DNA of 64,000 nucleotides. Source: an uncultured Gelidibacter sp. (GTDB taxonomy: Bacteria; Bacteroidota; Bacteroidia; Flavobacteriales; Flavobacteriaceae). Made by a program: the position numbers and the translations under genes. The stretch covers positions 186,001 through 250,000 of the forward strand of contig NZ_CANMTE010000003.1 in the NCBI RefSeq assembly GCF_947500795.1. The letters are read 5' to 3'. Below, piece after piece: positions 38,987 to 39,345 of the stretch. Numbering within the stretch: position 1 is the stretch's first letter; each line of letters opens with the position of its first letter. Below the pieces are notes generated by a model. That model searched no databases. It had not been told where the DNA came from and saw only the letters and a list, made by a program, of their open reading frames with translations.

Positions 38987-39028
38987 GAAGCAACCCATTT
39001 ATAGATTTAGGTTTTTAAATATAAGGCA

Positions 39029-39056
39029 AAAAAAAATTCCTGCTACTGCAGGAATC
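39029..39056 (-). terminator. rpsU terminator
   Basis: An 8-bp stem (39037-39044 with 39049-39056), loop tact, followed on the minus strand by nine T. This makes rpsU a single-gene transcript. Confidence 0.9.
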
Positions 39057-39082
39057 TCTTTTATTAAATTTCTATAAAACGA

Positions 39083-39277
39083 TTACACGTTTTCTTGATC
39101 TCTCAATCGTTGAACATATTGCGCTTTTTGAATCAAAGCTCTGTTCTCAACTGAAGGCTTTGTAAACTGCTTACGAGACTGTAATTGACGTTTCGTTCCA
39201 GTTTTATCAAACTTACGTTTGTAACGCTTTAACGCTCTATCTATATTTTCTCCTTCTTTAATTGGTATTATTAACAT
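39083..39277 (-). CDS. rpsU: 30S ribosomal protein bS21
   Basis: A 64-residue, very basic ribosomal protein (MLIIPIKEGENIDRALKRYK ... QYVQRLRDQENV). In Bacteroidota ribosomes bS21, with bS18 and bS6, helps to hide the 16S anti-Shine-Dalgarno end. The gene has its own consensus promoter, an unusually strong Shine-Dalgarno sequence and its own terminator, which fits autogenous control. Confidence 0.98.
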   Translation of the reverse strand: MLIIPIKEGENIDRALKRYKRKFDKTGTKRQLQSRKQFTKPSVENRALIQKAQYVQRLRDQENV

Positions 39278-39286
39278 AGTGTCTTA

Positions 39287-39296
39287 ACCTCCTCTC
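39287..39296 (-). promoter_or_regulatory. strong Shine-Dalgarno sequence of rpsU
   Basis: GAGAGGAGGT on the minus strand, ending 9 bases before the ATG at 39277. It contains the full AGGAGGT complement of the 16S 3' end. No other gene in this window that I examined has such a sequence. Confidence 0.85.
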
Positions 39297-39315
39297 TTTT
39301 AGAATTTTCAGGCTG

Positions 39316-39345
39316 CAAATATAAAAAGTAAATTATAATGCACAA
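39316..39345 (-). promoter_or_regulatory. rpsU promoter
   Basis: On the minus strand: TTG (39343-39345), a 19-base spacer and TATATTTG (39316-39323), an exact match. The predicted leader is about 30 bases and includes the Shine-Dalgarno sequence. Confidence 0.8.

Follow-up and report, generated by a model that had tools for sequence, protein, structure and literature searches.

The rpsU gene of this uncultured Gelidibacter sp., which encodes ribosomal protein bS21, carries a strong Shine-Dalgarno (SD) sequence in a genome that otherwise avoids them, and it shares that genome with a second bS21 gene that has none. What does the SD do, and what does the second gene mean for it? Published work supplies part of the answer: bS21, together with bS18 and bS6, sequesters the anti-SD of 16S rRNA (McNutt 2023, PMC9976891), and in Flavobacterium johnsoniae depletion of bS21, a Y54A substitution and a C-terminal deletion each raise translation of an rpsU'-gfp reporter (PMC9976891). 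Residue 54 is the position of anti-SD sequestration, with Tyr54 stacking on A1534, and rpsU, at < -13 kcal/mol, clearly leads the other ribosomal protein genes in ∼80% of Flavobacteriales (PMC9976891). In the sections of that study used here, rpsU is treated as essential in F. johnsoniae, a second copy there is not discussed, and the list of taxa with bS21 paralogues names no Bacteroidota (PMC9976891). The idea of a feedback loop is already published, and the present locus is a further member.

The gene in the window (the whole stretch of 64,000 nucleotides that was analyzed), here called rpsU-A, occupies positions 39083..39277 on the minus strand and encodes a clade A bS21 of 64 aa with Tyr54, scoring above the cut-off of NCBIfam TIGR00030. 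A putative promoter (39316..39345, minus strand) consists of TTG (39345-39343), N19 and TATATTTG (39323-39316), a reading that presumes the Bacteroidota promoter consensus, and an intrinsic terminator lies at 39027..39060 on the minus strand (hairpin of -17.3 kcal/mol plus a T-run, z = -5.9 versus shuffles); both had been proposed in the initial annotation and both are present in the sequence. The leader between promoter and start codon reads AAAAGAGAGGAGGTTAAGACACT. Within it, GAGAGGAGGT is separated by 9 nt from the ATG (39277), and the extended SD AGAGAGGAGGU (39287..39297, minus strand) forms 11 contiguous pairs, one of them G-U, with the 16S 3' end of the same genome (GGAACACCTCCTTTCT), at -17.6 kcal/mol (duplexfold). 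The strong SD claimed for this gene is thus confirmed, and its pairing energy lies beyond the < -13 kcal/mol that characterizes bS21 autoregulation of the F. johnsoniae type. The leader folds no better than shuffled sequences (z 0.16), and we claim no riboswitch-like element in it. A 13-nt inverted repeat surrounds the promoter in this genome (39368-39380 and 39299-39311; leader arm CTGAAAATTCTAA). Its length was not seen at the other rpsU-A loci checked, and we rejected the repeat as an operator, the mean repeat length over 77 readable loci (our own included) being 6.2 versus 5.9 in shuffles.

How unusual is such a start in this genome? We sampled 346 starts of ATG-started ORFs of at least 120 aa, called mechanically (304 from 400 kb of contig C1 and 42 from the window), a length limit for which rpsU-A itself is too short. 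Pairing of -12 kcal/mol or stronger was found at 0 of the 346 starts versus 2 in a mock region 42-65 nt upstream, and pairing of -8 kcal/mol or stronger at 3 versus 8. Mean pairing was likewise weaker at the starts (-1.3) than in the mock region (-2.4; Mann-Whitney P = 3.6e-7), so SD pairing is avoided at gene starts in this genome, and an SD-less start is its default state. The genome-wide scan covered sites with the RAGGAGG core before ATG starts. RAGGAGG-N3-12-ATG occurs at 75 sites versus 64 for the reversed control pattern, and hence there is no clear enrichment ahead of ATG. Only 4 of 79 RAGGAGG-ATG pairs open an ORF of at least 40 aa without in-frame readthrough of the motif, and rpsU-A alone among the 79 also has its motif outside every open frame of at least 130 aa. 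One other site reaches -17.6 kcal/mol (L371); this site is internal to an open frame of 345 codons, and the frame that its ATG opens has 11. A longer open frame shares the reading frame of 22 of the 79, and all five of these that were re-read have earlier in-frame starts. The looser pattern GGAGG-N4-14-ATG gave 569 unclassified sites versus 339 for its control, a surplus that Gly-Gly codons within genes may explain. The initial annotation had described a genome that otherwise avoids SDs and had suggested a scan of all gene starts as a check; many equally strong starts were not found, and the description stands unrefuted. Of the gene starts examined in this genome, only that of rpsU-A bears a strong SD.

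A profile search with PF01165 identified two bS21 genes (57.9 and 55.1 bits, cut-off 27), both of which also exceed the TIGR00030 cut-off of 28.95 (45.8 and 45.0 bits). The second, rpsU-B (contig 5, 93885-93694), encodes a protein of 64 aa that is 56% identical to bS21-A, and Tyr54 is present in both. It begins 33 nt behind a 287-aa RpoD gene, rpoD2 (1696-2559 of locus record L002, from contig 5 of the same genome), and a terminator-like hairpin follows it (z -8.5). Its leader has no SD (+2.9 kcal/mol). Because SD-less is the genome default, the missing SD needs no special cause and proves nothing alone. The other rpoD, on contig 3, encodes a protein 82% identical to the rpoD2 product and is presumably the canonical copy, judging from relatives. 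Second RpoD genes are common in Flavobacteriaceae. We recognized no description of a second bS21 gene, or of an rpoD-rpsU pair, in this family in the open-licence literature searched.

The distribution of the SD between the two genes was then read across the family. The survey comprised 149 family genomes, nearly all of different genera, with a bS21 match in 144 (at least two matches in 58 of these) and none in 5; second matches of G027 and G041, which fall below the family cut-off and one of which contains a stop, were dropped, and the clade A genes of these genomes were kept as single-copy. We read 193 bS21 genes in 132 genomes. The 12 remaining single-match genomes (G001, G011, G018, G039, G050, G075, G080, G096, G111, G131, G135 and G139) were unread, so two-copy genomes are slightly over-represented among the 132; a strong SD was seen in G001 and G131 outside this census. 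All pairing energies were computed by duplexfold with the 16S tail of G000, whereas the published survey used free_scan. This genome shares a deeply separate bS21 paralogue, clade B, with 61 others in the set of 132. Leaders at or below -13 kcal/mol precede 117 of 126 clade A genes and 0 of 67 clade B genes, the strongest of the latter reaching -10.2 (G117). The comparison of rpsU leaders across the family, which the initial annotation had also suggested, finds the strong SD in most of clade A and not in clade B. Where a genome holds both clades, the SD stands on A in 56 of 56 cases and on B in none, and this constancy is the notable point; A-only genomes carry it in 61 of 70. We read 78 of 80 named loci that resemble rpsU-A; 76 leaders lie between -16.3 and -21.9 kcal/mol, the exceptions being L094 (-10.6 kcal/mol) and L065 (masked by N). 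Gelidibacter algens provides the closest named match to this rpsU. The length, spacing and sequence of this SD are near-constant across many genera.

Since clade labels were set from SD and tree together, the split is tested independently by the tree and not by the SD count. The tree was built from 200 distinct sequences of 202, 11 of them from phages, leaving out L400, which has one unknown residue, and L425, which is truncated. The A/B split has support of 100/96, in a tree with few alignment columns, a bootstrap that had not settled and long phage branches. The B side holds 65 rows, none with an SD, and the other side holds all 116 SD rows together with 8 SD-less rows and the phages.

Neither the SD nor clade A is universal in the family. 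A strong SD is missing from nine clade A genes (L387, L390, L393, L400, L402, L407, L411, L417 and L421), and some relatives can thus do without the loop; all nine are in genomes of at most 2.2 Mb (sizes read by hand), and loss of the loop along with genome reduction is possible in these cases. Six of the 132 genomes have only clade B, three of them listed as 99% complete (G053, G091 and G138), and an order-wide search added G305, a single-contig family genome, and G185, each with one match that is B-like and SD-less. The loci from B-only or B-like-only genomes are L394, L414, L419, L422, L423, L424, L429 and L449, L429 coming from a single-contig assembly. Clade A may be truly absent from the B-only genomes, or it may have been lost in assembly gaps or missed; the single-contig G305, and G185, favor true absence in some relatives. 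Some relatives may therefore live without an SD-bearing bS21 copy.

The order-wide search covered 196 genomes, 166 of them outside the family, with bS21-B as the query at E 1e-6, a setting that may miss distant copies. No sure second bS21 was found outside the family at this setting: 2 of the 166 genomes gave two matches (G237 and G321), and these are 7% and 6% contaminated. All 30 loci from this search were read. The B or B-like ones (L426-L430 and L449) include none at or below -13 kcal/mol, the strongest being -9.8 (L430), and leaders outside the family are mixed, with a strong SD in some and none in others. Another family of the order is itself mixed for the SD (L440, L443, L445-L448, L450, L453-L455), and the loop may come and go between genera.

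Bacteroidota phages also encode bS21. We read 24 viral loci (20 from IMG/VR and 4 from huge-phage records) with 11 distinct proteins, and no viral leader (0/24) reached -13 kcal/mol; Tyr at position 54 is present in 23 of 24. One huge-phage gene, at position 1501 of L283, has AAAGGAGG in its leader (-12.1 kcal/mol), unlike the other viral leaders read. Phage bS21 shares with bS21-B the missing strong SD and the Tyr, but bS21-B is chromosomal with shared synteny, and in the tree the phage proteins sit with clade A. Scanning IMG/VR with bS21-A gave the 20 loci; with bS21-B as the query it yielded 16 candidate stretches, none of them a confirmed relative, and tblastn of bS21-B against phage records found 6, all below 60% identity (4 of the 6 fetched). 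These results speak weakly against a phage origin of bS21-B, the phage proteins joining the A side on long, unsure branches.

Some residues are kept in both clades. Ser42, Arg46 and Ala52 are invariant (124 A proteins of at least 64 aa and 67 B proteins). Residue 54 is aromatic in all 125 A proteins long enough to include it (121 Y, 3 H, 1 F) and in all 67 B proteins (61 Y, 4 H, 2 F). Residue 56 is Gln in all 124 A proteins but in 52 of the 67 B proteins, and residue 60 is Asp in 47 of 67 B proteins. A core of clade B with the HRN loop (41 genes, 64 aa) is more uniform, with Y54 in 41, Q56 in 40 and D60 in 40 of the 41. Part of clade B may differ in the pocket region, and, to judge from the residues, not all B proteins may be equal sequesterers. 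Clade B also includes divergent proteins whose C-terminal tails are altered (e.g., K55, E56), encoded at L231, L236, L237, L239, L247-L251, L253, L255 and L258, some of them in genomes with three bS21 genes; their anti-SD sequestration may be weaker.

We consider it very probable that the SD of rpsU-A serves as sensor in the bS21 autoregulation loop described in print. With bS21 hiding the 16S anti-SD, normal ribosomes translate SD-less mRNAs; 30S subunits without bS21 would expose the anti-SD, which would pair with the extended rpsU leader, and bS21 would be made from rpsU-A until the deficit is filled. The features shared with F. johnsoniae are an extended SD (9-13 bp in the published survey), rpsU at < -13 kcal/mol, SD avoidance elsewhere and a conserved Tyr54, while the difference is the second, SD-less bS21 gene of this genome, of which the sections of that paper used here mention none for Bacteroidota (PMC9976891). 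The feedback loop suggested in the initial annotation accordingly has experimental backing in F. johnsoniae (PMC9976891), though it is not new and did not reckon with a second SD-less gene. Given that gene, the loop may sense ribosomes without any bS21, not just those without bS21-A. rpsU-B, on another contig, SD-less and behind rpoD2, would be a second input beyond the control of the loop. Provided that the loop operates in this organism, and that bS21-B enters ribosomes at the same site and hides the anti-SD, production of bS21-B would lower translation of rpsU-A, and bS21-A could not lower that of rpsU-B by the same route. We infer that bS21-B is not subject to the loop and that its incorporation into ribosomes would silence bS21-A. 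Francisella tularensis also has several bS21 genes per genome, with a proposed role in tuning translation (PMC9578407, PMC9976891), but it is a gammaproteobacterium in which SD-like sequences are common and bS21 appears to act differently (PMC9578407).

What bS21-B does is the point on which explanations diverge. It could specialize ribosomes by altering mRNA choice via loop 23-31, the rpoD2-rpsU-B cassette changing sigma factor and ribosome together, which is possible but in our judgment doubtful; the accompanying notion that the SD on rpsU-A just allows the A form to shut itself down once B prevails is similarly tentative. Residues 23-27 are almost fully changed between the clades (most A proteins have F D K/R T G, most B proteins H R N V/I K) and residues 28-31 likewise differ, while much of the C-terminal half is kept. 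Phage bS21 proteins have a divergent N-terminal loop, and the host-phage divergence at R21, F23, D25 and T28 has been assigned to the mRNA side (PMC9723584). Of the 67 B genes, 29 follow an RpoD-like gene, here the second RpoD, at a distance of 9-234 nt, as does none of the 126 A genes. On the other side, no RpoD is present in the upstream stretch (∼1.5 kb in most) of 38 of the 67 B genes, and at least two RpoD matches occur in 36 of 86 single-bS21 genomes versus 33 of 58 with at least two bS21 genes (hand count), so RpoD2 and bS21-B are not an obligate pair. RpoD2 also keeps nearly all of the promoter-contacting regions in the alignment, which also counts against this explanation.

A different explanation would make bS21-B a mere backup, or place it off the ribosome, the SD split then having no regulatory meaning and only one copy needing the loop. 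The SD-less default agrees with this, as does the fact that B was not found in 70 of 132 family genomes, but we still think it rather unlikely: the B clade stands well apart and its B-specific residues are near-invariant, its constantly aromatic residue 54 fits continued use on the platform, and B-only genomes fit a working ribosomal protein better than an idle spare. Its neighborhood, moreover, is shared, gene clusters placing a large gene upstream, rpoD between in many genomes, and a convergent gene and another gene downstream. We take these neighbors to be AsmA-like (upstream) and DUF2797-like (convergent) and GH3-like (downstream); no NCBIfam family was assigned to the DUF2797-like one. 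That the rpsU-A SD itself is a relic or a chance purine run could draw on the nine clade A genes without it, yet its near-constant form over many genera, its uniqueness among the starts examined and the published function and reporter data in F. johnsoniae (PMC9976891) contradict this, and we regard it as highly improbable.

As the probable sensor of the loop, the lone SD of rpsU-A extends a published case of specialised bacterial ribosomes by one member, and the second bS21 gene matters more. A one-way ribosome switch in much of Flavobacteriaceae, made of an SD-sensing bS21-A and an SD-blind bS21-B, often in one operon with a second sigma-70, is a conjecture that we consider unlikely to hold. 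If it were true, turning on rpoD2-rpsU-B would load ribosomes with bS21-B, the anti-SD would stay hidden and bS21-A would be turned off by the SD loop of its own gene, so that one ribosome type would cleanly replace the other as the sigma factor changes. With SD-bearing and SD-blind copies together, three questions become directly testable: do two kinds of ribosome occur in one cell, does one of them silence the gene behind the other, and does an alternative sigma factor go with an alternative ribosome?
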